From: Rhodothermales bacterium
GTDB taxonomy: Bacteria; Bacteroidota; Rhodothermia; Rhodothermales; Bin80
Assembly: GCA_022821385.1 (NCBI GenBank)
Contig: JAJEDR010000023.1
Span: forward strand, 1-63,799
DNA: 63,799 nt
Direction of reading: 5' to 3'
The stretch's first letter is position 1, and every line of letters starts with the position of its first letter. The notes beneath the pieces were generated by a model. The model was given only the letters and a program-made list of their open reading frames with translations, made no database searches and had not been told where the DNA came from. The translations under genes and the position numbers were made by a program. Of this stretch, positions 4,959-57,370 are shown piece by piece.

Positions 4959-4961
4959 TGA

Positions 4962-12993: not shown

Positions 12994-13022
12994 ATATTAA
13001 ACAACTAAGTAACAATTGTCAA
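12994..13022 (-). promoter_or_regulatory. Putative promoter of the TonB receptor operon
   Basis: Read on the minus strand, a perfect TTGACA (13022-13017) is followed after 17 bases by TAATAT (12999-12994). The region is strongly AT-rich in otherwise mixed DNA, and it aligns with the AT-rich tract upstream of the paralogous SusC gene. The start of transcription would be near 12987, giving a leader of roughly 130 bases. Bacteroidota often use a different consensus (TTTG near -33 and TAnnTTTG near -7), so the sigma-70-like match is suggestive only. Confidence 0.45.
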
Positions 13023-13520
13023 TAGGGTCGGTACAAAACTGCCATGCGATACAATTCATGAGTAATTCTGAATTATTTCATGATTTTCCGTGATTCCGGA
13101 CTGAGTTGAACCCACGGAGCAAGGTATCTAACTGGAGAGCGAATCAGCCCAACTGAGTTGAGCACATTTTGCAGGTTCAAAGGGCTCTGGAGGAAATTCA
13201 TGGCTGAGGCATCATTGTTAGCCTGAATTCCCATGTATGTGAAATCTTCGTACCGATACTGTCAAGATTCCGTGAATTCTATTGTCCGATTGTTCTGGCC
13301 GCTGTATTAAACAGCGATGACTGTAATTGGGGGGTGATGCAGTGAGGGCGTCGAAGGCTTTTCCTGTTTGACAGCTACTCCTTCGGTACGGCTGCGATGC
13401 TGACTGACCACAGTTGAATCTCTGGACTTCCCCGGCTGAGTTCCGCAATGCTAATCTCCTGAACCTTGTCTGGCCGAAAAAAATGGCCAAATGCCAGCGT
13501 GCCAAGTCTTGACAGACACT

Positions 13521-13841
13521 ACTGCATTTCCTGTCGCTCCATAATGAAAGTGGAGGCTTCGTCGCAAGGATATTTGCGCCCATCAGAGAACATCGCCTAT
13601 TCATAGCGGCGCAGCACAATTGCTTGAGTTCAACGGGGTCATTGGCCGGGTAAATTTCCTTGCCATCCGCGCTCCGCCGCCGAAAATAGCTAGGTTGCCG
13701 TACTGGTAACCCCTAGGCCTTGAGTGGAAACCCGGCCTTGGATTGAATTACCCGCGAACTTCAGATGTAGTGTACTGAGAACTCGTGCAGTCCAGGAGCC
13801 CCGCCCAAGCGTCCGCACATATCGGTGGCCGTAGTTGTCAA
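13521..13841 (-). pseudogene. Decayed 3' end of a GH116-like gene
   Basis: This stretch aligns with the last roughly 330 bases of the intact GH116-like gene (19384-19710), in the same orientation. Conserved blocks are the C-terminal ...EAST(x3)ERQEM end, the shared DNA run catttcctg(t/c)cgctcca, tgccgtactggta, gggccttggattga or its close variant, and atatcggtggccgta. The matching protein pieces fall in different frames and include a stop inside the VLRRYE segment. It is therefore not translated as a unit. It is a scar of the duplication that produced two receptor genes with homologous leaders. Confidence 0.85.
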
Positions 13842-13968
13842 CTCCCCAATTTGGATCACAGGCTACACCCCGTTGGCTCAATAAACCTGAGCATTCTTAA
13901 ACAACAACCAGACCCACCGTTATCCAGGAACTTGGACCGTTACATTTGGCAATTCACAGCGGGTTCCG

Positions 13969-15519
13969 CTAATGTCCGGGGTTCTGCGTTACCACGCCAC
14001 CGGAAATATCAATTTCCAATTGCGGAATCGGATACAGGAGACGTTCCGGCGTTAAGCTGAAGCTTGTTGGCCCACCGTAATTGGTGATCCTCTGGAACGT
14101 GGTCTGCTGGGCCCCCAACTGCGCGTTCATTATTGCGATAGTTTGAGCCTCCGGAAGTCTGACCAGATCGAACCAACGGTGCATTTCAAAGGCAAACTCC
14201 AGCCTACGCTCCTTCATCAGCTTTTCCATGAAGCTGCCGGGCGTGTCGGGGCCAATATCCGCAAGACCCGCACGGCTTCGTACCTCATTTATAAGGGCAT
14301 AGGCCTCGCCACCCTCTCCCAGCGACTCTGCAAGCGACAACAGCACATCGGCATGGCGCAACAGGACAAGATTGACGTCAGCTCCGTCTGACTCCGCGCT
14401 TGTATCTATGAACTTGGTGATATATCCCCCGGGCTCACGGCCCTCGATTGTGCCAAACGTGTACGGAATCCGTAGATCATTCGGATCATCAAAGGCATCA
14501 ATCAAGTCCTGAGTGACAAACGGAAAGAGAATCTCACGTGTCGAGCCTCCAGCAACAATGCCCAGTTCGTCTGCAACACTCTGAGGAATAAAGTGCTGGC
14601 GGAACAACCCCGTCTGATTCGCTGGGTTAAAACTGACTTCAAAAATGGACTCAGCCGAATTGTCATTGCCGGGGCTATGGATCATCCCGTAGTCGCTGAG
14701 GAGCGAATACCTGTTGACTACCTGACGTAGTGCGGCTGTCGCAGCCCCCGCATTTCCCCGCTGCAATTCTACTTTTCCCAGCAACGTCAGAGCGGCTGAG
14801 TTGGTAGCCCTGCCGACTTCATGGCCGGAACTGCCATCGTAGGTTTCGGGAAGCACGGCGGCTGCCTCCGTCAGATCTCGTACTATCTGATCGTAGACCT
14901 CGGCCTCCGAGGACCGCGCTATGGCAGTTTCCTCAAAATCTTCCGTAGGGGTTACTCTCAGCGGTGTGCCTCCCCAGAGATTGACCATATGGTAGTAAGT
15001 GAATGCGCGTACGAATTTGGCTTCTCCCACAATGCGCGCAATCAGTGCTGCATCTCCGTCGGCATCGGGACCTCGGACGATGACCGTGTTGGCGAGATTA
15101 ATGCAGTTATACATCGCGGCCCACGTGATATCCAACAGCAGATTACCCGGTACCTCCGCAAATATGTCTATCTCGACACGCTCCGCCTGGTCCGTATGGT
15201 CCAAGCCGGTATTATCTGACCTTCCCTCAATAATGTTGTAAATAGTCCCGCTCCCGTAAATGGATCTTTGCGCGGCGTACACGCCGTTCATCCCGATCAG
15301 GAGCTCCTGATCCGTCGAGAAAAATGAAGGAGCATCAATCCGGTCAACGGGTTCCACATCTAGGAAACTGTCACACGATATCCCGACTAGCGAAGCCATT
15401 AGTACAAATATCACGACCCTAAGCCCGTTTGCCGTTAAGCATTGCCGATGGCTTTTCCGTAAGGGAGCACCACCACCCGCGGGCCCCGATAGCAATTTTT
15501 CGTTATTCCACGATTTCAT
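13969..15519 (-). CDS. SusD/RagB-family glycan-binding lipoprotein
   Basis: A 516-residue SusD homologue that caps the SusC pore and binds oligosaccharide at the cell surface. The start is set at an ATG 11 bp after the SusC stop; a longer reading overlapping SusC is less likely. The lipobox VGISC (Cys49) follows a hydrophobic stretch and leads into SFLDVEPVDRIDAPSFFST, the classical mature SusD start. TPR-like helices follow, such as EAKFVRAFTYYHMVNLWG and YDQIVRDLTEAAAVLPETY. The C-terminal part has NEVRSRAG, MKERRLEFAFEMHRWFDLVR and a LYPIPQLEI closing segment, all typical of the family. It forms the SusCD pair with 15531-18680. The ligand cannot be read from the sequence. Confidence 0.96.
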   Translation of the reverse strand: MKSWNNEKLLSGPAGGGAPLRKSHRQCLTANGLRVVIFVLMASLVGISCDSFLDVEPVDRIDAPSFFSTDQELLIGMNGVYAAQRSIYGSGTIYNIIEGRSDNTGLDHTDQAERVEIDIFAEVPGNLLLDITWAAMYNCINLANTVIVRGPDADGDAALIARIVGEAKFVRAFTYYHMVNLWGGTPLRVTPTEDFEETAIARSSEAEVYDQIVRDLTEAAAVLPETYDGSSGHEVGRATNSAALTLLGKVELQRGNAGAATAALRQVVNRYSLLSDYGMIHSPGNDNSAESIFEVSFNPANQTGLFRQHFIPQSVADELGIVAGGSTREILFPFVTQDLIDAFDDPNDLRIPYTFGTIEGREPGGYITKFIDTSAESDGADVNLVLLRHADVLLSLAESLGEGGEAYALINEVRSRAGLADIGPDTPGSFMEKLMKERRLEFAFEMHRWFDLVRLPEAQTIAIMNAQLGAQQTTFQRITNYGGPTSFSLTPERLLYPIPQLEIDISGGVVTQNPGH

Positions 15520-15530
15520 TGTAGTAGGGA

Positions 15531-18500
15531 TCAATAGGTTAGGTGGATGCCGAAGGTCCATACGCGCGGCAGCGGTAGGTGCGGTGGACTCGTCAGTCCG
15601 ATTTCTCTGCCGTCCGCTACGCCGGGAATCCTGGATCCGCCGAACAGCGACGGACCGCCGGCCGAATTCCGCCGCCCTTCAGGATTGCCGCCAATGAAGC
15701 TGGTCCACATGTGGACGTTCTCCATAGACGTATAGATTCTCCCGCGTGCACCCCGGACGCCGATTCCCTGAAGCAGCCTTTGGGGCAGGTTATAGGTCAG
15801 CGTTATGTTGCGGAGTCTGAGAAAATCGGTATCCTGAATACCAAGGCTCGAAACGGCTCCAATCCCGGTATCAAATCCTGAGGCGCTCGGCGTCTTGCCA
15901 TCGCCAGGTTCACTTTCCGAAATGTACCGGCCATCGTACCAGAATTCCCTGGACAGATTGACCCGGCGGAACGGTGCGCCGATCTGAATGATATATAGAT
16001 CCAGAACGGAGGCACCGGCCTGTCCGTTGAACCGGACATTAAGCTCGAAGTCCTTGTAGCGAACATCGGTGTAGAATCCATAGATGTAGTCCAGATTCGT
16101 TCCCTCCAAGTTAACGCCATCAGGCCCTAGGAAATTACTGATCGAACCATCGCCATCGGCATCTCTGTAGAGCATCGTACCCGGTTCCGCCCCCGGCTGC
16201 GCCGGATGTGTTTCCCCTTCCCTCACGATGCCCACATGCTCTACAACATGAATGTTCTGCAGTTCTCCGCCAACCGTGCGGCGTAGCGCCCCGAAGAAAT
16301 TTCTAATCTCTTCATCGCCTCCCAAATCCAGAATCTCCTGATTGTTGTTCGTCACATTGCCGCCCACAACCAAGTCGAAATCACTTGTCTCCATCACAGC
16401 AACACTGGCTGACAGCTCAATGCCATCGTTGCGCATGCTGCCGATATTAGTAAGGAAGCCCCCATAGCCAGACGACGCCACGATATTCCGCGATAAGAGC
16501 AAGCTAGTGGTGACATTATTGTAGTAATCCAGCACCACGCTGTAGCGGCCATCGAATAGAATCAGATCAAGGCCAATATCAAGTTGCTCGGATGTCTCCC
16601 AGGTCAAACCGGGGTTACCCGGATCACCAATGGCAACGCCAGTCAATTGAGCGGCTCCGAGCGAGTGATTGACGGGTCGCAGGCTCGGCCTCGCAATGAA
16701 GTCTGGAATTGCATTGCTGCCTGTGGAGCCGTAGGACACCCGAAGCTTCGCATCGTTGACAAAACCCAGCTCCTTAACGAAGTCCTCTTCGGATAGGCGC
16801 CAGCCGAGAGCGAATGAGCCGAACGTTTGGTAGCGATTATTGGCCCCGAACCTTGAACTCCCGTCCCGCCGTACGGTGGCTGTCAGTAGGTATCGGTCCT
16901 TGAACGAATAGTTGAGCCGTCCGAGAATAGAGGCGAGTGCGTTTTCGCCGAATCCATTGTTGGAGGTAAGGGTCTCCGAGTCACCGATAGACAGAATCCT
17001 CGCTCCCGGAATCTGCAGTCCTGCTACGTTGGAGGACACGAACTCGACTCGGTCTCGTTGCAGGGTAAAGCCGGCCAGCACATCAAAGAAGTGATCCCGT
17101 CTAAATTGCCTGCGGAAGTTGACCGTGTTTTCGTTCAGCCATCCCCGCCGCCACACTTGCCCTACATTAAGGGTACTGACCGACGGATAGGAAAATCGGG
17201 GCGGGCCGGCGGGAGCGTCGTAGAGCGATTCGTTCTTGTCAGATCCGATATTAGTGGACAGAACCGACTTGAACGTAATGCCTGGAAACGCCTCCACCTC
17301 CATGCTTACTCCACCCAGCATCCTGAACAGATCATGCGTGCGCTTGAACTGGTTGACGGTCTGCAGGGGATTCCCAATCGGAAAATTGCCCGGCACATAA
17401 CTTCCGATGGCATATTCACCATCGGAATCAAAGACCGGGATAATGGGTGGCAACAGAATGGCTTGTGCCCATGCAGATCTCCAGTCACTGCCATCTTCGC
17501 TGGGCCGACTGGACTTCGTGATCTTGGACACGCTCGGAGCCACATTCAGCCCGAAAGTGATTCTGTTGCTGGGCCGATAGTCCAGTTTAACGCGGGCTCC
17601 GATCTTATTGAATCCCTCGCCGGGTATGACTCCCGATTCCTGCGTATAGCTGCTTGAAAGCAGGTAGGAGACTTTTTCGGTTCCCCCGTGTGCAGAAAGG
17701 GACCAGCTGTGGAAGGGAGCAGTCTCGTAGAGCTCATCCTGCCAGTCCGTGTCCGTGGACCCATCCCAAACGGAGGAAATCCACGTGGGCGTTGTACCGC
17801 CATTCTGCTCAGTATGAAATTGAACATACTCCTGAGCATTCAGCATCTTGAAGCGTGAGGCCTGCGTGATGTTTGATATCCCGGCGTTCATAGCCAAATT
17901 GATCTGAGCGGTCCCGATATGTCCAGACTTTGTGGTGACGATAATCACGCCGTTGGCTCCCCGGGACCCGTAAATGGCCGTTGCCGAGGCATCCTTGAGC
18001 ACATCAATTGATTCAATATCCGCGGGGTTAAGCATTTGGGCATTCCGCTGGTCGGTCGGAAACCCATCAATTACCCAGAGAGGCTCGTAGCCGGCGGACA
18101 GAGAACCGATGGCGCGGATTGAGATCTGAGCCAGATCACCTGGGTTGGCACTTCGATCAGCTACATTGATGCCCGGAACCAGACCCTGCAGGGCCTTTTC
18201 CACTGAAGCAACCGGTCGCGAAGCCAGGTCCGCAGCCGAAACTGAGGCAATGGATCCGGTGACATCCTTACGCAACTGGGTACCGTAACCCGTAACGATA
18301 ATTTCCTCAAGTCCCGCCGTGTCCTCCTCCATCATCACATCAATGACCGTCCGACCTTCAATAGCCACTTCCTGCGTAACGAAGCCCACGAACGAGAACA
18401 CGAGAATAGTTGCGTCGTCGGGGACGATTAGCTCATAGTTGCCATCTACATCGGTAGCCGTCCCGATAAAGGATTCTGGGACGCGCACTGTCGCGCCGCC

Positions 18501-18680
18501 CAAGGGATCTCCATTGACATCGGTTACAGTGCCCGTGATGGTCACATCTGGTTGCAAACCAAATGAGCCCCACGAGCCGTGGGGCTCTCCCGCGCTGGGG
18601 GCCAACTGGGACTGGGCCAGCACTACACCCGGGCAGGCCAGCAGCAGCGCAACGATGAGGGTAGGCAGTCGCGTAAGCAT
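15531..18680 (-). CDS. SusC/RagA-family TonB-linked outer-membrane transporter
   Basis: A 1049-residue SusC homologue that imports glycan oligomers with its SusD partner immediately downstream. The signal peptide MLTRLPTLIVALLLACPG...VLAQ is nearly identical to that of the receptor at 9777. Residues about 48-120 are the CarboxypepD_reg-like domain (TITGTVTDVNGDPLGGA). The SusC signatures then follow: EEIIVTGYGTQLRKDVTGSI, the RPVASVEKALQGLVPG plug region, IRAIGS, WVIDGFP and DVLKDASATAIYGSRGANGV. The barrel closes with the aromatic-ended WTFGIHLTY. The duplicated signal peptide and leader show common descent of the 5' end with the other receptor, although the plug and barrel differ strongly. 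Confidence 0.97.
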   Translation of the reverse strand: MLTRLPTLIVALLLACPGVVLAQSQLAPSAGEPHGSWGSFGLQPDVTITGTVTDVNGDPLGGATVRVPESFIGTATDVDGNYELIVPDDATILVFSFVGFVTQEVAIEGRTVIDVMMEEDTAGLEEIIVTGYGTQLRKDVTGSIASVSAADLASRPVASVEKALQGLVPGINVADRSANPGDLAQISIRAIGSLSAGYEPLWVIDGFPTDQRNAQMLNPADIESIDVLKDASATAIYGSRGANGVIIVTTKSGHIGTAQINLAMNAGISNITQASRFKMLNAQEYVQFHTEQNGGTTPTWISSVWDGSTDTDWQDELYETAPFHSWSLSAHGGTEKVSYLLSSSYTQESGVIPGEGFNKIGARVKLDYRPSNRITFGLNVAPSVSKITKSSRPSEDGSDWRSAWAQAILLPPIIPVFDSDGEYAIGSYVPGNFPIGNPLQTVNQFKRTHDLFRMLGGVSMEVEAFPGITFKSVLSTNIGSDKNESLYDAPAGPPRFSYPSVSTLNVGQVWRRGWLNENTVNFRRQFRRDHFFDVLAGFTLQRDRVEFVSSNVAGLQIPGARILSIGDSETLTSNNGFGENALASILGRLNYSFKDRYLLTATVRRDGSSRFGANNRYQTFGSFALGWRLSEEDFVKELGFVNDAKLRVSYGSTGSNAIPDFIARPSLRPVNHSLGAAQLTGVAIGDPGNPGLTWETSEQLDIGLDLILFDGRYSVVLDYYNNVTTSLLLSRNIVASSGYGGFLTNIGSMRNDGIELSASVAVMETSDFDLVVGGNVTNNNQEILDLGGDEEIRNFFGALRRTVGGELQNIHVVEHVGIVREGETHPAQPGAEPGTMLYRDADGDGSISNFLGPDGVNLEGTNLDYIYGFYTDVRYKDFELNVRFNGQAGASVLDLYIIQIGAPFRRVNLSREFWYDGRYISESEPGDGKTPSASGFDTGIGAVSSLGIQDTDFLRLRNITLTYNLPQRLLQGIGVRGARGRIYTSMENVHMWTSFIGGNPEGRRNSAGGPSLFGGSRIPGVADGREIGLTSPPHLPLPRVWTFGIHLTY

Positions 18681-22703: not shown

Positions 22704-23966
22704 TTGATCAAGTTATTATGCCTCGGAGATGCACACCTAGGGCGGTATCCGTCCAGGGTTCCTTCTGGTGATAAATCTCTTTCGGTGCGTGCGGTCTGGG
22801 AGCGGGCGGTTTCAACTGCCATTGAAGAACGGGTTGATGCCGTAATTCTTACCGGGGATTTGGCCGACAACAAGAATGCATATTTCGAAGCTTATGGGGC
22901 CCTTCGAAGGGGAATTACCCAACTTAATCAAGAACGTATCTCTGTCGTAGCCATTGCCGGAAATCACGATTATGACGTCTTTCCTCAACTTGCAGAATCA
23001 ATGCCTGAGGATAATTTCATATTTCTTGGGCGTGACGGCACTTGGGATGAAACGGTATTGAGGACGCATTCTGGCCGAAGCCTACGATGTGTAGGATGGT
23101 CATTTCCAAGCTCCCACTATGATCGTTCGCCCTTGGATTCGCTTGGTCTCAATCAAAGCAAAGACTTCACGATTGGTATTGTACATGGAGATCTAGATAC
23201 GCAAAGCAAATACGCCCCACTTACCACACAGAATCTGATCAATCAACCGGTGAATCTATGGCTGCTCGGGCATGTACATGCCCCCAAGCTTCATGATGAC
23301 CACCAAATCCCCATACTCTATCCCGGATCACCTCAACCCCTGGACCCGGGAGAACCCGGTGTTCATGGACCCTGGATGATTACAGTCAGCCAGGACAATC
23401 AAATTAGAGCTGTACAGCTGCCATTTGCTTCCGTGCGGTATGAAACCATTCCGGTTGACGTATCTGCTGCAGCACAAATCAGCGAAGTAAAAATCTTGGT
23501 CGCTGAACAGCTTGAGGAATGCGGCAGTGAATTGATCAATAGCCATCCGAATCTTCAATACCTATCGTGCCGCCCTGTTCTAAAAGGACAAACACGGCTT
23601 CACCGCACGCTTTCAATCGAGGGACTACCTGATGTTGATGATCTTGACGTCCAAGTGAACGAATGCAGCATCACTGTCGATAAAGTATATGTTGAGACCT
23701 CGCCAACCCGAGACCTAGAAGAGATCGCACAACTCAATAACGCTCCACCGGGTATTCTTGCGCGGTGGATCCTGGATCTCAAGAGTGGTGGAGATCACGC
23801 ATTGCTTGATACTGCTCGTAAATCTGCTGCCTCGGTATACAAGAGTGCTGGATTTAAGAGTCTGGGTGAACAGGAGCCCGATACAGCAACACTCTCCAAA
23901 TTGGTGATTCAGCAGAGTATGCTTCTTCTTGACGAACTTCTCGCACAGAAAGAGGAAAATGGCTGA
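22704..23966 (+). CDS. SbcD/YhaO-type metallophosphoesterase (Mre11-like nuclease)
   Basis: A 420-residue calcineurin-like phosphoesterase, the nuclease half of an Mre11-Rad50-like pair. The motifs are in order: GDAHLGR (residues 8-14), ILTGDLADNKN, AIAGNHDYD and LLGHVHAP. These give the D-x-H, GD, GNHD and GHxH metal ligands. The C-terminal third (about 240-420) would be the capping and ATPase-binding part. The start is a TTG; no upstream ATG fits the conserved MIKLLCLGD opening. Its stop overlaps the start of the next gene by 8 bases, so the pair is cotranslated. It probably acts in processing of DNA ends or blocked forks. Confidence 0.88.
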   Translation: MIKLLCLGDAHLGRYPSRVPSGDKSLSVRAVWERAVSTAIEERVDAVILTGDLADNKNAYFEAYGALRRGITQLNQERISVVAIAGNHDYDVFPQLAESMPEDNFIFLGRDGTWDETVLRTHSGRSLRCVGWSFPSSHYDRSPLDSLGLNQSKDFTIGIVHGDLDTQSKYAPLTTQNLINQPVNLWLLGHVHAPKLHDDHQIPILYPGSPQPLDPGEPGVHGPWMITVSQDNQIRAVQLPFASVRYETIPVDVSAAAQISEVKILVAEQLEECGSELINSHPNLQYLSCRPVLKGQTRLHRTLSIEGLPDVDDLDVQVNECSITVDKVYVETSPTRDLEEIAQLNNAPPGILARWILDLKSGGDHALLDTARKSAASVYKSAGFKSLGEQEPDTATLSKLVIQQSMLLLDELLAQKEENG

Positions 23967-26721
23967 GTCACTGCTCTTCAAGGAGGTCCGGATTGATCGG
24001 ATGTATGGATTACACTTTGACCTATATCTCTCAGGACTGTCCCCAAACCTCAATATCATATTTGGCCCAAATGGATCGGGGAAGACCACCATCGCCAATG
24101 CACTAAATGGCCTGCTTCTGCCAAGTGCCGCGCGTGCGGTGAAACTATACGGGCAAGCAAATCTGGGTTTTGGCAATCAGATACTCTCTTTGGACGCGAA
24201 AGGGACGCGTACGAAGTGTCGAATCAATGCGAGAACGGTCGATCACAGCCAGTTCTCGCAGTTCCTGCGACCCAAAAGCTATCACTTATCCTTACAGGAA
24301 CTGCTCCCCGAAAAAAATGATGATAACGAACTTGCCCGGGAAATTATCAAGCAAGCCAATGGTGGGTTTGACATTGTAGCTGCGGGCAGGACGCTTGGTT
24401 TTAAACTCCAGAGAAGCTACGGCCAAACAAATGAAACCAAAGAGTTTGAAGCGATCAACAAAAAACTGCAATCCGTTATTCAAGAACAAAGCAGTCTTCA
24501 GCAGCAGAAGAATCACCGTGCAAACCTCAGGCAGAAACTTGACCTAAGCCTGGAAGCCGGCCGTCGCGCAGAACTGATCGGAAAAATAATACGGTGGCGC
24601 AACGCTGAAGCCGAATACCAAAAAGCCCACGCCGTCGCAGAATCCTACCCTCGTGTTATCCGATCCAGTCAAAGCCTAGCTAATGCTGTAATGAACGCGC
24701 AGGAGCTAGCCAAGACAATTGACCGCCTGGAAAGAGAGGCGGATGAAGGGCGCCGAACTATTGAACGCGTACAAAAAAATCTAGAAGAAAACCACCTCTC
24801 ACCGAATGGTCTCGAACCGGGTGCACTGCAGCTGCTGATTGCCCAAGTTCGTGATTTTTCCGAAAAACACCGGAAGCTTGAAGAACTGAATGAAACGCAC
24901 CAGGCCGCTGAAAAACAGGCCCTGAATGCTTGGAGAAGGTTGAACGGTCTCTTGCCGAAAGGATGGCAACCGACATTTACGCGCGAAGATCTCTTAAGGC
25001 TGCAAGGCTATGCGAAGAACTTTGCTTCGCATACCCAGGAGAAAAAAGCACTGGAAGAATTAAAGATCCTGCTTGGAGTCGATAAGGCCAATAATGGCAA
25101 TGCTGAAAGCAACAAACTTCGTGATGCTCAACGGGATATTTTACAATGGATCCTGGCCCTGAGAGATGAGACGCCCCAACAAAAGAGGACGCGAAATATT
25201 CTCCTGACTACGGCTATTGTTTCCGCAGCTATGGCCCTGTGGTTCGGGATTGCGATCCATCCCAGCGGATATCTAGGGCTGGTTATCAGCCTGCTGATTG
25301 GATGGACATATATCCTTCTACGATCGGGATATCGACCACAAATATCCCCTTCGCAAAAAGACAGTATTAAGCGCCTCCTTCCCGAATTGCCCGAAAATCC
25401 AGAGCCGGACGCCCTGCAATCGGGGCTTGATCAACTGACCGAGGAACGCTCCCATGCGCAGTTAGACTCGCTCAAAAGGAACGAATCCCATCGGATAGAG
25501 CGATCCCTTGAGAGTGTGTCCGGGCAACAATCCAAATTGGAAGAACAGAAAGAAGAACTAATAAGGACAATTAATCTTGACCCGCCAAACGATATTACAT
25601 CCCTGATTGAACTTGTTGGCAGCATCCTGAACTGGCAGGAGCTAGATGATAAAGCAAAAGAGCTGGCAAACAGATGCGAACAAGTATCTGCAACCTACCG
25701 CACCCTTTTGGAAACTGTAGGCAGCACCTTTGAGCAGTACGGATACGAAAAACCAGCAAATCCACATGATGCCGAGCGATTCCTTGATATCGTTAGAAAT
25801 GACGATGATGCGGCCAAACGCGATCATACCAGACTGAAACAGGAAAAAAGAGGGGTGGAAACAACGCAACGCAACCTTGAAGAACAAGTATCCCAGCATG
25901 CAAATCTATTCAAGGACTTGGAGCTTGAAATAGGGGATTTATCCGGTCTGGCGGCCTGCGCAAGGCAATATGCCGAATGGGAAAGAGCTAATTCCCATAG
26001 GAATAACCTAAAGGTCCGAGCGAACACATTGCGCCCTTCACCAGAGGATCTGCGCGAAAATGAATCACTCGTGGAACTCGAAAATATTGAGGATGAACTG
26101 GCGGCTGCACAGAGTCAGTCTGCAGAAGCGAGTGGTTTACAAGAGCGTCTCACCAGGCTCGACTTGGAGATCGGGCGTACCGAAGAGGGACGTTCACTGG
26201 AAGATGCTTTAGCAGAAAAAGAGAACAAGCGCTTAGAGCTTGAGAACGTACGAAGCGAAAAAGCGGCAAAGGCTGTTGGCCAGGCCATACTGGATACCCT
26301 CCGCGACAGTGCGATAAAGAATGCCCCTCCGGTATTTCAGCGCGCACAAGAGAATTTTGAACGGGTTACCGGCAACCGCTATACCCTCCGCATCCCCGAA
26401 GACAATACCTTCGGAGCGAGGGATAACCAACTTGAGCGAGACTTTGACCTAACCAAGTTATCCAGCGCTACGAGAGTGCAACTACTCCTGTCTGTGCGCC
26501 TCGCATTCGTAGAGACTCAGGAAACCAGTTACCGGTTACCACTCACCTTGGACGAAACATTGGCCAATAGCGACGATCCGCGTGCGCAGGCTATCATCAA
26601 GACCATGTCAACTCTGGCGGCCAACCGCCAGATTTTCTACTTCACGGCCCAGGAAGATGAAGTGAATAAGTGGAAAGATTACGTCCCTGCTAAGCTGTTG
26701 CATGTACACCGTATTGGTTAG
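23959..26721 (+). CDS. YhaN/SbcC-like ATPase with coiled coils and central membrane hairpin
   Basis: A 920-residue SMC/Rad50-like ATPase, partner of the preceding nuclease. The ATG at 23959 follows AGAGGAAA and is preferred over an upstream in-frame start. Walker A GPNGSGKT is at 36-43, and the C-terminal lobe has the SSATRVQLLLSVRLA signature region and LPLTLDETLANSDD (Walker B/D-loop). Between them lie long charged coiled coils. Instead of a CxxC zinc hook there is a hydrophobic pair of segments at about 413-457 (VSAAMALWFGIAI and LGLVISLLIGWTYILL). This places it in the YhaN (AAA_27) group rather than classical SbcC and suggests a membrane-tethered complex. Confidence 0.85.
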   Translation: MAESLLFKEVRIDRMYGLHFDLYLSGLSPNLNIIFGPNGSGKTTIANALNGLLLPSAARAVKLYGQANLGFGNQILSLDAKGTRTKCRINARTVDHSQFSQFLRPKSYHLSLQELLPEKNDDNELAREIIKQANGGFDIVAAGRTLGFKLQRSYGQTNETKEFEAINKKLQSVIQEQSSLQQQKNHRANLRQKLDLSLEAGRRAELIGKIIRWRNAEAEYQKAHAVAESYPRVIRSSQSLANAVMNAQELAKTIDRLEREADEGRRTIERVQKNLEENHLSPNGLEPGALQLLIAQVRDFSEKHRKLEELNETHQAAEKQALNAWRRLNGLLPKGWQPTFTREDLLRLQGYAKNFASHTQEKKALEELKILLGVDKANNGNAESNKLRDAQRDILQWILALRDETPQQKRTRNILLTTAIVSAAMALWFGIAIHPSGYLGLVISLLIGWTYILLRSGYRPQISPSQKDSIKRLLPELPENPEPDALQSGLDQLTEERSHAQLDSLKRNESHRIERSLESVSGQQSKLEEQKEELIRTINLDPPNDITSLIELVGSILNWQELDDKAKELANRCEQVSATYRTLLETVGSTFEQYGYEKPANPHDAERFLDIVRNDDDAAKRDHTRLKQEKRGVETTQRNLEEQVSQHANLFKDLELEIGDLSGLAACARQYAEWERANSHRNNLKVRANTLRPSPEDLRENESLVELENIEDELAAAQSQSAEASGLQERLTRLDLEIGRTEEGRSLEDALAEKENKRLELENVRSEKAAKAVGQAILDTLRDSAIKNAPPVFQRAQENFERVTGNRYTLRIPEDNTFGARDNQLERDFDLTKLSSATRVQLLLSVRLAFVETQETSYRLPLTLDETLANSDDPRAQAIIKTMSTLAANRQIFYFTAQEDEVNKWKDYVPAKLLHVHRIG

Positions 26722-26814: not shown

Positions 26815-29493
26815 ATGATTAGAATTGCTACTATTGCTCTTTTTGCCGGATTCCTTGTATCCGGCTGCGTTTCACCGTCAACAACCAATGTCACGCTTGA
26901 CCTCCCTGACGGTCTTGAGCGTGTGTGGATCGGATCCGATTTCTATGCTAACCGCCTGATGGATTGGCGTTATGCCAACGGCCGCATTGAGTGCATTGAG
27001 GGCAGGAGCGCCAAACCAATGAGAACACTTCATTTGCTCACCCATTATCTGGGCGCCGAGGCAGGAGAATTGTCGATGTCAGTTCGGACGGGAGCATTAT
27101 CACCGACAGACAGTGCACATAGTAGTACGTGGTCAGGTTTTCTGCTTGGTGCGGGGGGGCCAGACGTGGATTGGAGGATTTCGAGCCTTGTTCACCACTG
27201 GCCCGCCGAAGATGGGGGGCTGATCGTAGGAGTAGACGGTCAGGGACAGATCATTGTCCGGTCCAATACCAATGCAGATGCCCCGAAAGGCCCACGCGCC
27301 AATATTACCGTTGAGGCGTGGCCGCTCATTGAACCCGAGACCTCTACGGGTAGCTTGTCGGCGGGTGATCCTGTAAAGTTGAGCATACAGGCCAGCGCGG
27401 CTGGAGACAACTACGAATTAATTGTTACTGCCTCAGATCCGGTTACCGAGGAAGTATTGGCAGAGGCACGATACAGTGGGTTGCCTCACGAGTATTTTGA
27501 GGGCAATGTAGCACTGGTGAGTCATAACAGTCCCCTTATGGAAGGGGAAGGCTATTGGTTTGACGACTGGACGATTGGGGGATCGAAATTCCAGTATGAT
27601 GAAGCGCGGGCATTCGGCCCCATACTGGCGGCTCAGTATACCGTAAGCGACGGAACGCTGAAAATGACGGCACAAATGCCACCGATTGGGGAAGACGATA
27701 CGCCTACAGTTGGGCTAGAGCTCATGCTCAATGGAGACTGGGTGCACTCAGCGAGCACTACAATCATTCCTGATAGCTATACCGCCCCTCTCCGCGTGGA
27801 CGATTTTGAGGCGAACACCGACGTGCCTTACCGGCTGACCTACGATCTGCGCACTGCAAACGGCACCGAGCGCGTACACTTTCCAGGCACGGTACGTATG
27901 GCACAGGTTGAGGATGATGAGTTTGTCCTGGCCTCACTGAATTGCCAAAATATTTCCCAGGGGCGGGATCTGGTGTGGAATCACAGTACAATCTGGTACC
28001 CTCACAGTGAACTCACAGCCGCTGTGGCCTACCATGATCCTGACTTACTCTTTTTCGCCGGGGATCAGATCTATGAAGGCGGGCTTGCAGGCATAATTCG
28101 TTCGCCCCTTGACAAGACTTTCCTGGACTATCACTACCACTGGTACAGGTTCCTTTGGGCTTTCAGGGACTTAATGCGTGATCGCCCCACCGTGGCGATC
28201 CCGGATGACCACGACGTATATCATGGCAACATCTGGGGGCATGGTGGCAAGAAAGCTGAGGGACCGTGGCGGCCACAGTCCGACAACGGTGGCTACATCA
28301 TGGATGCCCGTTTTGTCAACGCTGTCCACAATACACAGGTCTCCCACTTGCCCGATCCTTTTGACCCCACGCCCATTGAGCAGGATATCAGCGTATACTA
28401 TACGAACCTGACCTATGGTGATATCAGCTTCGCCGTTGTGGCAGATCGTATGTGGAAATCAGCTCCCCGCCTGGTCCTTCCAGAGGCACAGGTACGCAAT
28501 GGTTGGCCAGAAAACCGGGAATATGACGCTACCTCAGTAACAGAAGCGCACCTCCTGGGGCCGCGACAACTCAAGTTCCTGAACCAGTGGGCCCACCAGT
28601 ACCCTGATAATGTCTGGATGAAAGTGATGCTCTCCCAGACGTTGTTCAGCAACCTAGCCACACTGCCCAGCGGGTCATTTGACGATCGCGTCGTTCCACA
28701 AATGAGATATGCCGAGCCAGGGGAATACATGAGCGACGACCATCTAGGCACAGACATGGACTCTAATGGTTGGCCACAGAGTGGACGCAACCGTGCATTA
28801 AACGCCATTCGGAAAGGGTTCGCATTTCATGTAGCCGGTGATCAGCATCTGGGTAGTTTCGTGCAGTATGGCATCGCCGAGTTTGGGGATGGCCCCAATG
28901 CCTTCATATCACCCGCAATCGCCAATGTGTGGCCTCGGCGCTGGTTTCCGCCGGAGCCCGGCGGCAATCGTAAACCAGGAGCTCCGGCCTATACTGGTGA
29001 TCACTTGGACGGCTTTGGGAATCACATGACGGTACACGCCGTAGCCAATCCAGTGAAGAGCGGCCGCACACCGGAGGCACTCTATGATCGTGTACCTGGT
29101 TATGGAATCATTCGTTTTAATCGGGATTCCCGTACGATTACTGCTGAGGCATGGCCTCGCTGGGTCGATCCGGCGAGTGAGGATGCCTATCAGTATTCTG
29201 ACTGGCCGGTTACGGTCACCCAGGAAAGCAATTATGGCCGACAGGCAGCCGGATATTTGCCCCCTATCAATGTCGAGGGGCTAACCGAGCCCGTATTTAC
29301 ACTGATTAATGAAACCACAATGGATACACTTTACACGCTCCGCCTTTCGACGCTACCATTCAGAGCAAAAGTATTTGATACCAGCAGTTCATATACGGCC
29401 GTAATTGGAGATCAATCCGTGCATGAGGCGCGGCTGACCGGACTGCAGGTGGATGCAATGGAAAACCCCGAAACACTAGTAGTCACATTTTGA
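26815..29493 (+). CDS. PhoD-like metallophosphatase lipoprotein
   Basis: An 892-residue exported protein. The ATG at 26815 is preferred; a GTG nine bases upstream is also open. Lipobox LVSGC follows the hydrophobic signal MIRIATIALFAGF. The N-terminal 230 residues resemble a concanavalin-type beta sandwich (YFEGNVALVSHNSP, GYWFDDWTIGG). The C-terminal half carries PhoD-type metallophosphatase motifs: DLLFFAGDQIYEG, VAIPDDHDVYHGN and HVAGDQHLGS. PhoD enzymes cleave phosphomono- or diesters in the periplasm. The stop overlaps the next gene, a sulfatase, by four bases, so phosphate- and sulfate-ester hydrolysis appear to be made together. Confidence 0.85.
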   Translation: MIRIATIALFAGFLVSGCVSPSTTNVTLDLPDGLERVWIGSDFYANRLMDWRYANGRIECIEGRSAKPMRTLHLLTHYLGAEAGELSMSVRTGALSPTDSAHSSTWSGFLLGAGGPDVDWRISSLVHHWPAEDGGLIVGVDGQGQIIVRSNTNADAPKGPRANITVEAWPLIEPETSTGSLSAGDPVKLSIQASAAGDNYELIVTASDPVTEEVLAEARYSGLPHEYFEGNVALVSHNSPLMEGEGYWFDDWTIGGSKFQYDEARAFGPILAAQYTVSDGTLKMTAQMPPIGEDDTPTVGLELMLNGDWVHSASTTIIPDSYTAPLRVDDFEANTDVPYRLTYDLRTANGTERVHFPGTVRMAQVEDDEFVLASLNCQNISQGRDLVWNHSTIWYPHSELTAAVAYHDPDLLFFAGDQIYEGGLAGIIRSPLDKTFLDYHYHWYRFLWAFRDLMRDRPTVAIPDDHDVYHGNIWGHGGKKAEGPWRPQSDNGGYIMDARFVNAVHNTQVSHLPDPFDPTPIEQDISVYYTNLTYGDISFAVVADRMWKSAPRLVLPEAQVRNGWPENREYDATSVTEAHLLGPRQLKFLNQWAHQYPDNVWMKVMLSQTLFSNLATLPSGSFDDRVVPQMRYAEPGEYMSDDHLGTDMDSNGWPQSGRNRALNAIRKGFAFHVAGDQHLGSFVQYGIAEFGDGPNAFISPAIANVWPRRWFPPEPGGNRKPGAPAYTGDHLDGFGNHMTVHAVANPVKSGRTPEALYDRVPGYGIIRFNRDSRTITAEAWPRWVDPASEDAYQYSDWPVTVTQESNYGRQAAGYLPPINVEGLTEPVFTLINETTMDTLYTLRLSTLPFRAKVFDTSSSYTAVIGDQSVHEARLTGLQVDAMENPETLVVTF

Positions 29494-30899
29494 AGTTTAG
29501 TCCCCTCTTACTGCTCCCGTTCCTCCTGATGGCCTGTAGGCTGGCCCAGCCGAACGTAATTTTGATTCTGGTTGATGACCTTGGATGGATGGATACCGGT
29601 GTATATGGAAGCACATTCTATCATACGCCCAATATAGATCGCCTAGCAGCTTCAGGCACACGATTTACACAGTTTTATGCATCCAGCTCGGTTTGCTCTC
29701 CCACGCGTGCCAGTATTATGACAGGAAAGCATCCGGCAAGGCTTCAAATAACCAATTGGATTGGAGGAGCCGCGAACGGACAACTCCTCCAGGCTGAGTA
29801 CCGCCGCGCACTACCACTTGAAGAAACCACTCTTGGGGAGACATTCGCGCAGGCCGGATACAGTACCGCATATATCGGCAAATGGCATTTGGGCACTGGA
29901 CTTTTTCGTCCTGAAAATCAGGGATTCGACAAGGTGTTTGCATCCAATGATGCCGGACAACCCGGATCATTCTTTGCACCCTACATCAATACGAATTTTC
30001 CAGCTTCAAATGTGCCTGGACTGGAAACGGATGCGGACAGCACATACCTCACCGATCGCCTAACCGATCTTGCCATAGACTTTATTGAGACCAATCGTGG
30101 AACCCCATTTCTCCTTGTGCTCTCTCATTACGGTGTCCATACACCGCTACAGGCCAAAGAACAGGACATTGAACGGTTCAGGACATCCGAGCCTGCTACG
30201 ATGTTTGAACAGGAGCAGTTTGGAGGTGCAACACGCCTGACACAAGATCACGCAGTTTACGCGGCTATGATCGCTTCGGTGGACGAGAGTGTGGGACTCG
30301 TCCTGCAGGCATTAGAAGCTGCTGAACTTCACGATAACACGATTGTCGTATTTACTTCAGACAACGGCGGGCTATCAACGCTCAGCCAAGGACGTACCTG
30401 GGCACCAACCTCCAATCAGCCATTCCGTGCAGGTAAGGGCTGGCTGTACGAGGGAGGGATACGTATACCTCTCATAGTGAGCGGTATATCGCGTGAGCCA
30501 ACGATCATAGATGTACCTGGTACGACGGATGACCTGCTACCAACCATAACTTCATTGGCAGGCCTGCCCAATCCTATTGATGTTGATGGCCTCGACTTGT
30601 TTGCGCAACCAGCCCCCGAAAGGGAACTTTACTGGCATTTTCCCCACTACCACGGCTCTGCCAATCGTCCGTCTGGAGCCGTTCGTCAAGGACGATACAA
30701 GGCTATTGAATGGTTCGAGACGAACTCAGTAGAGCTCTACGACCTTGACTCAGATCCAGGCGAAACCACCGATATCAGTACTTTCGAACCTGCCAAAACC
30801 CAGGAACTCCTGCATAAGATGCAATCCTGGCGGGACTCGGTCGGTGCGCGTATGCCCCGCCCTAATCCAGACTATTCTGCCCCACCAAGCGATAGCTGA
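29490..30899 (+). CDS. Sulfatase lipoprotein with TTG start
   Basis: A 469-residue sulfatase with FGly motif C69-S-P-T-R73 followed by ASIMTG, DD at 29-30 (ILVDDLGWMD) and a SDNGG motif. The start is a TTG overlapping the PhoD stop (TTGA), with a short signal MKFSPLLLLPFLL and lipobox LMAC (Cys16), so this one uses Sec/Lsp rather than a clear Tat signal. It resembles the choline/N-acetylgalactosamine-6-sulfatase-like branch in its WIGGAANGQLLQAEYRRALP insertion, but the substrate is not known. Its 3' end overlaps the convergent gene at 30862-32370 by 38 bases. Confidence 0.93.
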   Translation: MKFSPLLLLPFLLMACRLAQPNVILILVDDLGWMDTGVYGSTFYHTPNIDRLAASGTRFTQFYASSSVCSPTRASIMTGKHPARLQITNWIGGAANGQLLQAEYRRALPLEETTLGETFAQAGYSTAYIGKWHLGTGLFRPENQGFDKVFASNDAGQPGSFFAPYINTNFPASNVPGLETDADSTYLTDRLTDLAIDFIETNRGTPFLLVLSHYGVHTPLQAKEQDIERFRTSEPATMFEQEQFGGATRLTQDHAVYAAMIASVDESVGLVLQALEAAELHDNTIVVFTSDNGGLSTLSQGRTWAPTSNQPFRAGKGWLYEGGIRIPLIVSGISREPTIIDVPGTTDDLLPTITSLAGLPNPIDVDGLDLFAQPAPERELYWHFPHYHGSANRPSGAVRQGRYKAIEWFETNSVELYDLDSDPGETTDISTFEPAKTQELLHKMQSWRDSVGARMPRPNPDYSAPPSDS

Positions 30900-45287: not shown

Positions 45288-45743
45288 CTACTCAACCGTT
45301 ATCGTAACCGGCTCTGATACTACAGGGGGATCGTGTGGTATATGGGCAAAATCCCCCAGAACCAGTTGAAATGTGTACGTACCCGGGCTTAGATCCAATG
45401 TGGTTTCTGTCTGACCAAGGCCAAAATGGAGGTGGGCCGAGTCCGTAGGAACGGGCATATCCATATGCGGTAGTTCTTCGACATTAACCAATAGATGATG
45501 ATGCCCCGAATTGTCAAATTCTATACCGGCCGGTGCAACTCCCATCCCAGACAGTCCAAATTTGACCGTAACCGCCCCACTCTGTACAACAGATCCATCC
45601 TCCGGTGCGATGATGTACACGGCTGCCCCCTCCGCAGATGTAGAAGGCATATACGCCTCCGCCTGTGTAGATTCCACGGGAGCTTCAACTTCTACCTGAC
45701 AGGCGGCAAATATCAGTAACACGATAATCCAATTCCACTTCAT
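45288..45743 (-). CDS. DUF4399 lipoprotein
   Basis: A 151-residue protein. The ATG at 45743 gives signal MKWNWIIVLLIFAAC with lipobox IFAAC, better than the ATG four codons earlier. The mature part is a DUF4399 domain: VKFGLSGMGVAPAG, SGHHHLLVNVEELP, HLHFGLGQTETTLDLSPG and LVLGDFAHIPHDPPVVSEP. The many His residues (HHH, HLHF, HIPH) suggest metal binding, possibly copper, but the family function is not known. It is 168 bp upstream of photolyase on the same strand. Confidence 0.88.
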   Translation of the reverse strand: MKWNWIIVLLIFAACQVEVEAPVESTQAEAYMPSTSAEGAAVYIIAPEDGSVVQSGAVTVKFGLSGMGVAPAGIEFDNSGHHHLLVNVEELPHMDMPVPTDSAHLHFGLGQTETTLDLSPGTYTFQLVLGDFAHIPHDPPVVSEPVTITVE

Positions 45744-53506: not shown

Positions 53507-54541
53507 ATGAAACGCTGTGTCACATTTGGCGAAATCATGCTGCGACTGTCCCCGCCCGGGTTCCAGCGATTCGTGCAGGCCTCCTCCTTTGAAGTGCGCT
53601 ATGGTGGAGCCGAAGCGAATGTTGCGGCTTCACTGGCCGGATTTGGGATTCCCGTTCAATTTGTCTCACGCGTACCCTCGAATGAGTTAGGGACCAGTGC
53701 AGTGCAAGCTGTACGTTCACTCGGAATCGGAACACAATTCATCCAGCGCGGAGGCGAGCGCCTAGGAATCTACTTCCTGGAAACCGGCGCATCTGCACGT
53801 GCGAGCAAGGTTCTTTATGACCGCGCATACTCGGGTATCGCTTCCATAGAACCGGGAATGATCAACTGGGATGACGTCTTTGCAGGAGCAGGCTGGTTTC
53901 ACTGGACTGGAATCACACCAGCGGTTTCCGAGGGGGCAGCATTGGCTGTAGAAGAAGCCCTCACGGCGGCAAGGCGTCACAACGTGACGGTCTCCGTAGA
54001 TCTTAATTATCGTGGCAATTTGTGGAAGTGGGGAAAGCCTGCTGCAGAAGTAATGCCCAATCTGGTTGCTTCATGCGATGTTATCGTAGGTAATGAGGAG
54101 GATGCCCATAAGGTCTTCGGCATTCACCCTGAGGGGGTTGAGGTAAAGAGCGGCCATCTGGATGCTTCTGCCTATGAATCCGTTGGCCGGCAGCTTATGG
54201 AACGATTTCCGCGCTGCCAACGAGCTATCATTACACTGCGCAGTTCTATCAATGCTTCACACAATGCCTGGTCCGGCATCCTATGGGACGGATCAGAACT
54301 ATTGTACGGGCCCGAGTACGATATCACGCATATCGTTGACCGTGTGGGAGGGGGAGACTCCTTCGTAGGTGGCTTAATCTATGGACTCCTAGCCTTTGAT
54401 GGTGATAACCAAAAAGCATTGAACTTTGCTGTGGCCGCTTCCTGTCTCAAACACACTATACCCGGGGATTTCAACCTGGTGAGCGTGGCTGAGGTAAATA
54501 AACTGCTCTCTGGAGATGCCTCCGGCAGGGTTACACGCTAG
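53507..54541 (+). CDS. kdgK: 2-keto-3-deoxygluconate kinase (PfkB family)
   Basis: A 344-residue PfkB-type kinase. The opening VTFGEIMLRLSPPGFQRFVQ, then RYGGAEANVAASLAGFG, TGASARASKVLYDRAYSGI and VSVDLNYRGNLWKWGK are those of KDG kinases, which phosphorylate 2-keto-3-deoxygluconate from uronic acids. The ATP-binding/catalytic motif is GGGDSFVGGLIYGL with the base Asp (usual GAGD replaced by GGGD). The unusual DGSELLYGPEYDITHIVDRV segment precedes it. It follows the transporter by 47 bp on the same strand, so the two are probably cotranscribed. Confidence 0.88.
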   Translation: MKRCVTFGEIMLRLSPPGFQRFVQASSFEVRYGGAEANVAASLAGFGIPVQFVSRVPSNELGTSAVQAVRSLGIGTQFIQRGGERLGIYFLETGASARASKVLYDRAYSGIASIEPGMINWDDVFAGAGWFHWTGITPAVSEGAALAVEEALTAARRHNVTVSVDLNYRGNLWKWGKPAAEVMPNLVASCDVIVGNEEDAHKVFGIHPEGVEVKSGHLDASAYESVGRQLMERFPRCQRAIITLRSSINASHNAWSGILWDGSELLYGPEYDITHIVDRVGGGDSFVGGLIYGLLAFDGDNQKALNFAVAASCLKHTIPGDFNLVSVAEVNKLLSGDASGRVTR

Positions 54542-54595
54542 TACCTCAACTTTTTCAATCAGAATCCTGGGTCGTTAGCACCCGGAGATCCATGG

Positions 54596-55393
54596 ATGTT
54601 AACCAAAATCATGAGAGCAAGCCATTTAGCTCCAACGTCTGAAATTGGTTTTGGAGGAAGCTCTAAGTATTCCACTATAAACCAGACCCCACAACAATCA
54701 ATTGGAGAAAGCAAGGGCAAGGTCTGCGCTCACAACGGACCGAAATACCCATGTGACCGACCAGTATACGTGAAAGGATATTGCTCAATGCACTATCACA
54801 GGCTGAACCGGGGCAGCACTATGGACGCCCGGCCCGCGTGCATAAACAAAGGCAAGATATGCTCTCACGACGGACCGAAATACCCATGTGACCGACCGGC
54901 GAAATCTAAAGGGTACTGCGTGACGCACGTGCTGAGGCTCTACTACGGCAAGCCGATGGACGCCCCGCACCAGATGAAAAACAAGGGCAAGACATGTTCC
55001 CACGATGGCCCGAATTACCCGTGTGATCAGCCGGCGAGAGCCAAAGGATATTGCCAAGTGCACCGTAAACGACAGTGCGGTGGCAAACCGATGGACGCCC
55101 CAATCAGGATCAGAGGCGAAACCAAGGGCAAGACATGTGCTCACGACGGACCGAAGTACCCGTGTGACTGGCCAGTGACGGCCAAAGGATACTGCACAGC
55201 ACACTATAATCGGCAGTACCAAGGCTCCCCGATGGATGCCCCGATCAGAAGCGAAAGCGGAGACAAAATATGTGCCCACGACGGACCGAAATACCCGTGC
55301 AATCGGCCGGCGAAAGCCAAAGGATATTGCCAAATGCACCGTAAACGACAACGCGAAGGCAGACCGATGGATGCCCCACGAAGAAGGACCTAA
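54596..55393 (+). CDS. Protein of five tandem Cys/His zinc-finger-like repeats
   Basis: A 265-residue basic protein with an unstructured first 39 residues followed by five units of about 45 residues. Each has the pattern C-x-H-x6-C-x9-C-x2-H: C44/C53/C63/H66, C89/C98/C108/H111, C134/C143/C153/H156, C181/C190/C200/H203 and C226/C235/C245/H248. Invariant text within units includes GP(K/N)YPC, KGYC and MDA(P/R). The core resembles the short CxxxGCxRPxxAxGLCxxHYxR modules of HNH nucleases, sigma factors and phage proteins, so nucleic-acid binding is a fair guess. No signal peptide or membrane segment. A GGAG eight bases before the ATG supports the start. The multi-repeat form is not one I know. 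Confidence 0.85.
   Translation: MLTKIMRASHLAPTSEIGFGGSSKYSTINQTPQQSIGESKGKVCAHNGPKYPCDRPVYVKGYCSMHYHRLNRGSTMDARPACINKGKICSHDGPKYPCDRPAKSKGYCVTHVLRLYYGKPMDAPHQMKNKGKTCSHDGPNYPCDQPARAKGYCQVHRKRQCGGKPMDAPIRIRGETKGKTCAHDGPKYPCDWPVTAKGYCTAHYNRQYQGSPMDAPIRSESGDKICAHDGPKYPCNRPAKAKGYCQMHRKRQREGRPMDAPRRRT
54713..55390 (+). repeat. Five in-frame DNA repeats of about 135 bases
   Basis: Units begin near 54713, 54848, 54983, 55124 and 55259, with periods 135, 135, 141 and 135. They are similar at the DNA level (for example gacggaccgaaatacccgtg and aaaggatattgc recur) but not identical. They encode the Cys/His units of the protein above. The 141-base unit carries a two-residue insertion (GET). Such repeats can expand or contract by recombination. 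Confidence 0.9.
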
Positions 55394-56192
55394 AACGGCT
55401 TGTTGGATTAGTGCCAACCATACCGGCCTCGCGAGACTGAGCGAATGCAGTGCGTCCTGTACTGCAACCGGACAACCGTACTCCTAGCGGCGACTTCTCC
55501 ACGTGTTTACGTCGCCGGCAAAGGCCAGTGCCTTGCAAATCCACTAGGGAAGCCCCGCGATGTAGTAGTAACGGTACTGAACCCACGCGAAGGCAATGCC
55601 TCGAGTACCGCTCCTCCTTCCCGAGGCACTAGGCGACTCAACTGCGCTGAACGTGGAAGATCGAGGCCGCTGAAAGCGTGTTATCGTGGATCGCATTCCC
55701 CGGACGAATAACGGACGTCCGGCGAGAAGCGAAACCAATTCCTCTCGGAGTTCAGTGATCCAGGCCTGAACCCGACACGCCGCAGGAACACCAATATAGA
55801 AAATCGCTCCCTTGCCGATCAATTAGTTCTGGAGCAACGCACAAGCAAGCACCCTAAACCATTGCCTCTACAGCCAACGCCACAGGCCTCACCTTCCGGT
55901 CCGCTGCTCCATCCTGAGCTCTACGCCTTACGCCCTCGTTGCATGTTGGCCACAGGAAGAGATTGTCGCTACCAGATTTCGCATGCCGCAAGACACAGAG
56001 AATGCGAAAAATAAGGATGCCGCGTACAATGCTCGAAAAAACTGCGCAAATTATCGCACCCAACCAGCCGATAAATAAAGAAATGGAGGCCAAGTTTCTG
56101 GGTAAGACCGCATTGTCCAGTATTTCTTGAGTATACGGGGCAACGCTGGGCAATGCGCGCAATTGGCGGTGGTATGCAGAATCCACCGATTG
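55394..56192. other. Intergenic region with no confident gene
   Basis: About 800 bases between the Cys/His repeat gene and the tRNA. Minus-strand frames at 55544-55822 (92 residues) and 55854-56186 (110 residues, with hydrophobic stretch ISLFIGWLGAIICAVF) are open, but have no family match, ribosome binding site or signal. They may be remnants of an inserted element. I see no RNA gene other than the tRNA. Confidence 0.4.
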
Positions 56193-56267
<75 letters not shown>

Positions 56268-56314: not shown

Positions 56315-57370
56315 GTGGAAAAACCTAGTTTCGATGTAGTTGTTGCCGGTGCCGGACTAGGCGGCACATGTGCAGCTTTGTGGCTCTCCACTTCCAACCG
56401 TGTATTACTGTTGTCGGGGACTGCCTCGGCTGCGTCCGGGATTGCGGCGGGGCTGGTCAACCTGTTTGCCGGACAGCGCGTTGTCCCCGTCTGGCATGCT
56501 GACCTTGCATACAAAGACCTTCTAGATACGCTTGCGCACGCTGATGCAACCGATACTTATAACACTAGTGGTATTTTGCGACCGGCCCTGAACGAGGAAC
56601 AGGCTGTACGTCTGCGCACACTTGCCTTGGAGCACGCCGACTCATTCACCTGGCTATCGCGTGATGAGACACACGCCCGCTATCCGTATGTGTCCGCCCC
56701 TTTTGGTGCTGCAGTTACGACGGGTGGAGTAGTTGATACACCTACAATGCTGGAGTACACACATACGACGATCGCGTCTCGCTGTACTGTGCTGTCGTCT
56801 GATCTTGTTGGTTGGGAAGACTCCGGATCGGGAGTGACCGTTGCGCTCAAATCAGGACCTTCCCTCCATGCCTCAAAACTAGTCCTTGCGCTCGGTGCAG
56901 GTTACAGGTCCTTTCCTGTACTTTCTGCATTAAACCTGCATTGTCTCAAAGGCCAGATCGTTCGCGTACGTGCTCCGGAGTATCCTTCATGTTCCATTCC
57001 GGTGAGTGGATATGGATACGTAGTTCCTCTGCGAGACAAATTAATTCTCGGGACCACGTATGAGCATTCCTATCAGGATGATCAACCCACAAGACTGGGA
57101 TCCAAAAACATTCTCGCGCTAACACAGCAAATGGTACCCTGTTTAGAGGCAGCAGACATTCTTGATACAGCAGCGGGAATTAGAGTCGGTGTTCCCGGAA
57201 CCCGATTGCCGATGGTTGGTCCATTGTCTGGAAATGTATGGGTACTGACCGGACTTGGATCAAAGGGATTATTGTTTGGTGCACACATCGGCCGCAATAT
57301 AGCAAACTGGATATCCAATCCTGAGCACGTTCCCTACGAACTACGTTTGCAGAAAAAACGACGGATTTGA
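56315..57370 (+). CDS. FAD-dependent oxidoreductase (DAO family)
   Basis: A 351-residue flavoprotein. The dinucleotide-binding motif VVVAGAGLGGTCAALWLS (about 8-25) is followed by SAASGIAAGLVNLFAGQRV, a region like that of the glycine oxidase/D-amino-acid oxidase/MnmC-C group. The middle HLH-type KGQIVRVRAPEYPS and GYVVPLRDKLILGTTYE, and the C-terminal AAGIRVGVPGTRLPMVGPL with TGLGSKGLLFGAHIGRNIA, fit the DAO fold. It probably oxidises an amine or amino acid; no N-terminal methyltransferase half is present. The start is a GTG at 56315. It is divergent from the tRNA. Confidence 0.85.
   Translation: MEKPSFDVVVAGAGLGGTCAALWLSTSNRVLLLSGTASAASGIAAGLVNLFAGQRVVPVWHADLAYKDLLDTLAHADATDTYNTSGILRPALNEEQAVRLRTLALEHADSFTWLSRDETHARYPYVSAPFGAAVTTGGVVDTPTMLEYTHTTIASRCTVLSSDLVGWEDSGSGVTVALKSGPSLHASKLVLALGAGYRSFPVLSALNLHCLKGQIVRVRAPEYPSCSIPVSGYGYVVPLRDKLILGTTYEHSYQDDQPTRLGSKNILALTQQMVPCLEAADILDTAAGIRVGVPGTRLPMVGPLSGNVWVLTGLGSKGLLFGAHIGRNIANWISNPEHVPYELRLQKKRRI

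Follow-up and report, generated by a model that had tools for sequence, protein, structure and literature searches.

The window analysed here, a 63,799-nucleotide stretch of a Rhodothermales genome (contig JAJEDR010000023.1, genome G000), contains at positions 54596-55393 an open reading frame whose translation is largely made up of five consecutive Cys/His units. This locus raises the question whether the frame is a genuine gene, from where its units originate and what a protein built as such an array may do in the cell. A sequence-only reading of the window had suggested a possible new zinc-array family that binds DNA or RNA.

Organization of the array protein

The forward-strand frame encodes 265 aa. 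An N-terminal region of about 40 residues (54596-54715) is followed by unit 1 (54716-54850; putative ligands C44, C53, C63 and H66), unit 2 (54851-54985; C89, C98, C108, H111), unit 3 (54986-55126; C134, C143, C153, H156), unit 4 (55127-55261; C181, C190, C200, H203) and unit 5 (55262-55390; C226, C235, C245, H248), all in the same orientation. The first cysteines (residues 44, 89, 134, 181 and 226) are spaced by 45, 45, 47 and 45 residues, and all five units display the pattern C-x8-C-x9-C-x2-H with an additional histidine two residues past the first cysteine, which adds up to 20 core putative ligands and five extra histidines. The motif C-x-H-x6-C-x9-C-x2-H and the spacing of about 45 residues had thus been read correctly, and in 20,000 shuffles of the array protein not even two C-x8-C-x9-C-x2-H motifs occurred together. 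Of three motifs that had been called invariant, KGYC is kept in every unit, while GPKYPC reads GPNYPC in unit 3 and MDAP reads MDAR in unit 1. The protein is basic, as had been noted earlier (pI 9.7; 49 K+R vs 19 D+E).

The array frame is a real gene that is kept under selection

An ortholog of the same length and with 74% identity was found at the same site in G009, Rhodothermaceae bacterium bin80 (contig MPNB01000006.1). The names bin80 and Rhodothermaceae appear in a paper on binning of the Aplysina aerophoba sponge microbiome (PMC5649159), and the array-bearing bacterium is sponge-associated.

Comparison of the two orthologs yielded a dS of 0.46, a dN of 0.15 and a dN/dS of 0.33 (Fisher p 8e-9), and the differences are distributed over codon positions 1, 2 and 3 as 32, 48 and 65. 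The non-array frames of the same stretch gave dN/dS values of 0.4-1.6 and/or contained stops, and this frame-specific selection rules out an artefact or shadow ORF. For the neighbouring pfkB, the same species pair showed an equal dS of 0.46 and a dN/dS of 0.07, demonstrating that the array gene is less constrained than pfkB. None of the 20 core ligands has changed between the two species, as compared to 59 of 225 differing residues (P 0.0017), and the five extra histidines are unchanged as well. In the N-terminal 40 codons, dN and dS are similar and both low (about 0.15), and this region is predicted to be disordered; it may be a tail or a partly untranslated leader. Translation may actually start at the ATG at 54611, since the sister species has TTG in place of the ATG at 54596.

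The units resemble a Cys3His module of phage HNH nucleases

As judged from profile matches, the units are copies of a Cys3His module that stands in one to five copies in front of HNH or endonuclease-VII-like nucleases (PHROG 5351, 1271 and 19978). A profile built from 73 phage, viral-contig and plasmid modules, none of them from this genus, matched every unit of the array (E 2e-42, as compared to 0.05 for the best of 1000 shuffles). PHROG families annotated as HNH endonuclease also matched strongly (PHROG 5351, E 3e-27), in agreement with the earlier remark that single units resemble a module of HNH nucleases and phage proteins. These matches do not extend beyond what the array has in common with the N-terminal modules of the relatives, whose HNH_3 or HNH Pfam domain follows further towards the C-terminus. 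The array units share with the PHROG modules the tandem arrangement, the general pattern C-x(n)-C-x9-C-x2-H with a G-[YF]-C core and, more broadly, the K/R-G-[YLWF]-C-x2-H core; an MDAP-like tail is likewise present in actinophage modules (GRPMDAPI in Redno2, GKPLDAPI in Wamburgrxpress). The relatives range from a protein with one module and a possible helix-turn-helix (L057) to proteins with four or five modules and HNH, e.g., gp149 of Gordonia phage ClubL (four modules, HNH) and a plasmid ORF of Streptomyces sp. NBC_01298 (five modules, HNH_3), and include proteins annotated as endonuclease VII.

Three features set the window protein apart from the PHROG 5351, 1271 and 19978 proteins. The first spacing is C-x8-C and not C-x4-C, the units resemble each other far more closely, and the protein has no nuclease domain: within the array ORF, no HNH family was detected by Pfam, and PHROG matched only the module part. 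Tblastn with 24 phage and plasmid tails against the region 3' of the array yielded no convincing HNH remnant (best E 0.013, in a tiny target). Within the sensitivity of the scans, the four-residue-longer first knuckle (HDGPKYP) was not seen beyond the two carrier species. When 394 genomes of the phylum Bacteroidota were searched with profiles of one unit and of three units, modules were detected only in this genus and in a one-module protein of G109, and a genome-collection scan with the unit alignment identified the C-x8-C form solely in Rhodothermaceae bin80; a second weak locus in that scan lacked a module ORF.

The earlier reading had named a known domain array with assigned function as the outcome that would contradict it, and half of this was found. 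The whole array protein reaches 33.2 bits with Pfam DUF5763 (cut-off 26.3), a score summed over the repeats, and its best individual stretch spans no more than 17 positions (13-29 of the 39-position profile); for Zf_WRKY19, the protein remains below the cut-off (13 vs 27 bits). Both families share a short C...C...GxC-x2-H pattern with the window units, however, DUF5763 has no assigned function and neither family offers one that could be transferred.

Nuclease-free arrays also occur elsewhere

A free-standing array had been regarded as new, which did not hold. Three plasmids carry ORFs that comprise modules and no other recognised domain, namely WJV31846.1 of Rossellomorea sp. AcN35-11 (four modules), an unannotated ORF of Cytobacillus oceanisediminis (four) and WP_114594871.1 of Euzebya pacifica (three). 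The free-standing state is therefore uncommon, but not unique. Unlike the window array, these are plasmid-borne and consist of three to four diverged units with C-x4-C spacing.

In G000, G004 and G008, a paralog with three C-x4-C units (122-124 aa), also nuclease-free, is flanked by rpsA and a gene for an aldehyde dehydrogenase (L013:5863-6237, minus strand; L014:6670-7038, minus; L015:7981-8355, plus). It is matched by the same 73-module profile (E 6e-32) and evolves at a dN/dS of 0.10-0.15. In G009, this paralog has shrunk to a one-unit remnant in which one Cys is replaced by Tyr (L071, about 3491-3616, minus strand).

As free-standing arrays exist elsewhere, the claim of a new zinc family had to be lowered: the array is a variant arrangement of a widespread and poorly curated module. 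What is new here is the C-x8-C spacing, the homogeneous expansion to five units and the chromosomal retention under selection.

Two side observations concern the plasmids. The Rossellomorea protein (L092:1860-2351) passes the Zf_WRKY19 cut-off (38.6 vs 27 bits), a hint that finger arrays of bacteria and eukaryotes may be connected. In addition, the plasmid gene table, which is incomplete, lists no gene for the Streptomyces ORF (L090:2025-3071) or the Cytobacillus ORF (L093:1758-2375).

The array is cargo of a pfkB/tRNA-Arg hotspot

The array gene lies on an insert of about 1.6 kb (54542-56145, ends approximate) that reaches from the stop codon of a pfkB-family kinase gene (53507-54541, plus strand) to the 3' side of a tRNA-Arg(ACG) gene (56192-56266, minus strand), beyond which a gene for an FAD-dependent oxidoreductase follows (56315-57370, plus strand). 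Short near-repeats are present at its ends (ACGCTAG at 54535, ACGCTGG near 56143). Among ten genomes of the genus, only G000 and G009 share this insert. The site is empty in five (G001, G002, G004, G006 and G008; some 170-190 bp between the flanks) and carries other cargo in three (loci L039-L041), namely a SocA/Panacea antitoxin-type gene in G003 and G005 and, in G007, a glucose/sorbosone dehydrogenase gene together with a degenerate fragment of tRNA-Arg at the far end. The intergenic region between pfkB and tRNA-Arg is a hotspot for cargo.

The insert contains no integrase, toxin or partner gene, and neither an integrase nor an att duplication of the tRNA end, the marks of a tRNA-borne integrative element, was found; a tRNA fragment at the far end was seen in G007 only and not in G000 or G009. 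Downstream of the array (55394-56145), no gene, HNH remnant or RNA family could be recognised, and Rfam matches in these roughly 750 bp were insignificant apart from the tRNA. Promoter and terminator scans remained at chance level, no operator-like site was found, and the only repeat detected elsewhere in the genome was a 47-bp match. As a side observation, the downstream stretch of about 750 bp is conserved between G000 and G009, and a 175-codon minus-strand frame within it is open in G009 and broken in G000.

The array probably expanded and was lost in a sublineage

Over the shared core, the identity between units of one array is 0.55-0.58 in the window protein and 0.23-0.42 in those arrays of phages, plasmids and the paralog that were compared. 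As its own units are more alike than those in phage arrays, the array has probably expanded rather than only eroded, and this similarity is consistent with an expansion that started from a single C-x8-C unit. Units 1, 2, 4 and 5 are one-to-one orthologous between G000 and G009. By contrast, the middle of window unit 3 matches unit 5 with an identity of up to 97% and its G009 ortholog with 60% or less, marking a conversion tract from unit 5. It had been proposed that DNA repeats allow the unit number to vary. Recombination between units did occur, and the reduction of the paralog from three units to one in G009 demonstrates that the number can change in such genes; the array itself, however, has five units in both carrier species.

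In a tree of pfkB and the oxidoreductase, the species branch as (G009,(G000,(G004,G008))), with support of 0.98 and 1.0. Given this tree and the equal dS of array and pfkB, the history is most simply explained by a single gain that predates the four species and a single loss that predates G004/G008. The array was thus probably gained once and then lost in the G004/G008 sublineage, two separate gains being less likely. Such a loss in G004 and G008 indicates that the array is dispensable.

Predicted structure

In AlphaFold2 models from alignments of 10 and 6 rows, the five units are predicted to be small and separate from each other; every one contains short strands and a helix of nine residues that starts at C-x2-H. 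Overall pLDDT was moderate (75 and 63), mostly 70-84 inside the units; pTM was 0.38 and 0.27 and the inter-unit confidence was low, so that the models would suit flexible beads on a string. Relatives of the module with solved structure were found neither by sequence nor by fold. The top Foldseek matches were ribosomal proteins and insignificant (E above 3, probability 0.01).

Possible function and alternatives

We propose that the array is a nuclease-free string of five Cys3His zinc modules that acts as a DNA-binding regulator by occupancy, a reading to which we give an even chance. Each module would fold around one zinc and comprise short strands and a basic helix that begins at C-x2-H, and five of them on flexible basic linkers would bind an extended stretch of DNA. 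Since no cutting domain is present, binding itself would be the function. Occupancy of the site may regulate or repress, and its target would probably be the array gene itself or else a phage or mobile element that makes use of the tRNA-Arg site. The gene would have arrived as accessory hotspot cargo in the ancestor of the four species, would have grown by duplicating a single C-x8-C unit and would have been lost in one sublineage.

Zinc binding, DNA binding and repression are what we infer. In T5orf172 homing endonucleases, arrays of zinc modules constitute the DNA-binding part; they are described as a beads-on-a-string arrangement whose repeats recombine, and CapR, a nuclease-free protein with a finger homologous to those of T5orf172 enzymes, represses phage capsid expression (PMC10448857). 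The window array resembles these systems in its beads-on-a-string modules typical of mobile nucleases, in repeat recombination and in the existence of a nuclease-free member. However, the CapR finger is CxxC...CxC, as opposed to the C-x8-C-x9-C-x2-H read directly from the window protein, and the likeness is one of analogy, not of homology. A zinc finger in such enzymes need not be a DNA reader either, as in the counter-case I-TevI the finger is a distance-measuring linker (PMC10448857, PMC2988022). The papers searched yielded no module member with measured DNA binding, and we encountered no solved structure and no dedicated function for the phage module; binding of RNA or protein would fit the same sequence.

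The array may also be a drifting remnant of a phage HNH homing endonuclease, namely the DNA-binding half left after loss of the nuclease. The modules do belong to HNH proteins, the paralog in G009 is decaying, the array has disappeared from G004 and G008, and dN is close to dS in the N-terminal codons. Yet over a dS of 0.46 neither species acquired a stop, all ligands were retained and the frame remained under selection, no HNH trace lies downstream, and the mutual similarity of the units points to expansion, which renders such a relic rather unlikely. Alternatively, the array could be an accessory of a mobile element or defence island that recognises foreign or satellite DNA in trans and possibly recruits another protein. 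The antitoxin-type gene at the site in two species, the tRNA-Arg fragment in another and the phage and plasmid relatives would be in line with this. We nevertheless hold it unlikely, as no defence-system model matched, the insert lacks an integrase, toxin or partner gene and only two of ten genus genomes carry the array.

Similarly, the basic units may bind structured RNA, possibly tRNA or rRNA, as suggested by their high charge, by the nearby tRNA gene and the paralog adjoining rpsA, and by the ribosomal proteins that headed the Foldseek matches. These matches were far from significance, however, the tRNA side is a cargo hotspot occupied by unrelated genes in other species, and the relatives are DNA-cutting enzymes; we therefore regard an RNA- or ribosome-associated zinc protein as quite unlikely.

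If the proposed occupancy regulator does bind DNA, it would be a natural example of a modular bacterial zinc array that is assembled from a widespread phage module. It would also illustrate how selfish nucleases can have their DNA-reading half put to new use in the absence of the cutter, for which CapR provides a hint with a different type of finger. As a small and tractable protein, it would lend itself to learning the recognition rules of the module. More speculatively, and with considerable doubt on our side, nuclease-free multi-unit DNA readers may have arisen repeatedly from phage nuclease modules and may have been adopted by chromosomes as regulators or anti-mobile-element factors whose specificity is altered by unit recombination, the C-x8-C array being a lineage-specific example.

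Other observations in the window

A second candidate array at 45495-45719 turned out to be a chance regex match. Three ORFs at 2863-6656 and 29490-30899 appeared sulfatase-like when their translations were inspected by eye and occur near outer-membrane receptor-like ORFs (9777-18680), as expected of a polysaccharide-degrading symbiont. At 22704-26721, overlapping ORFs resembling a phosphoesterase and a long coiled-coil ATPase are, also by eye, reminiscent of an SbcD/SbcC-type pair.
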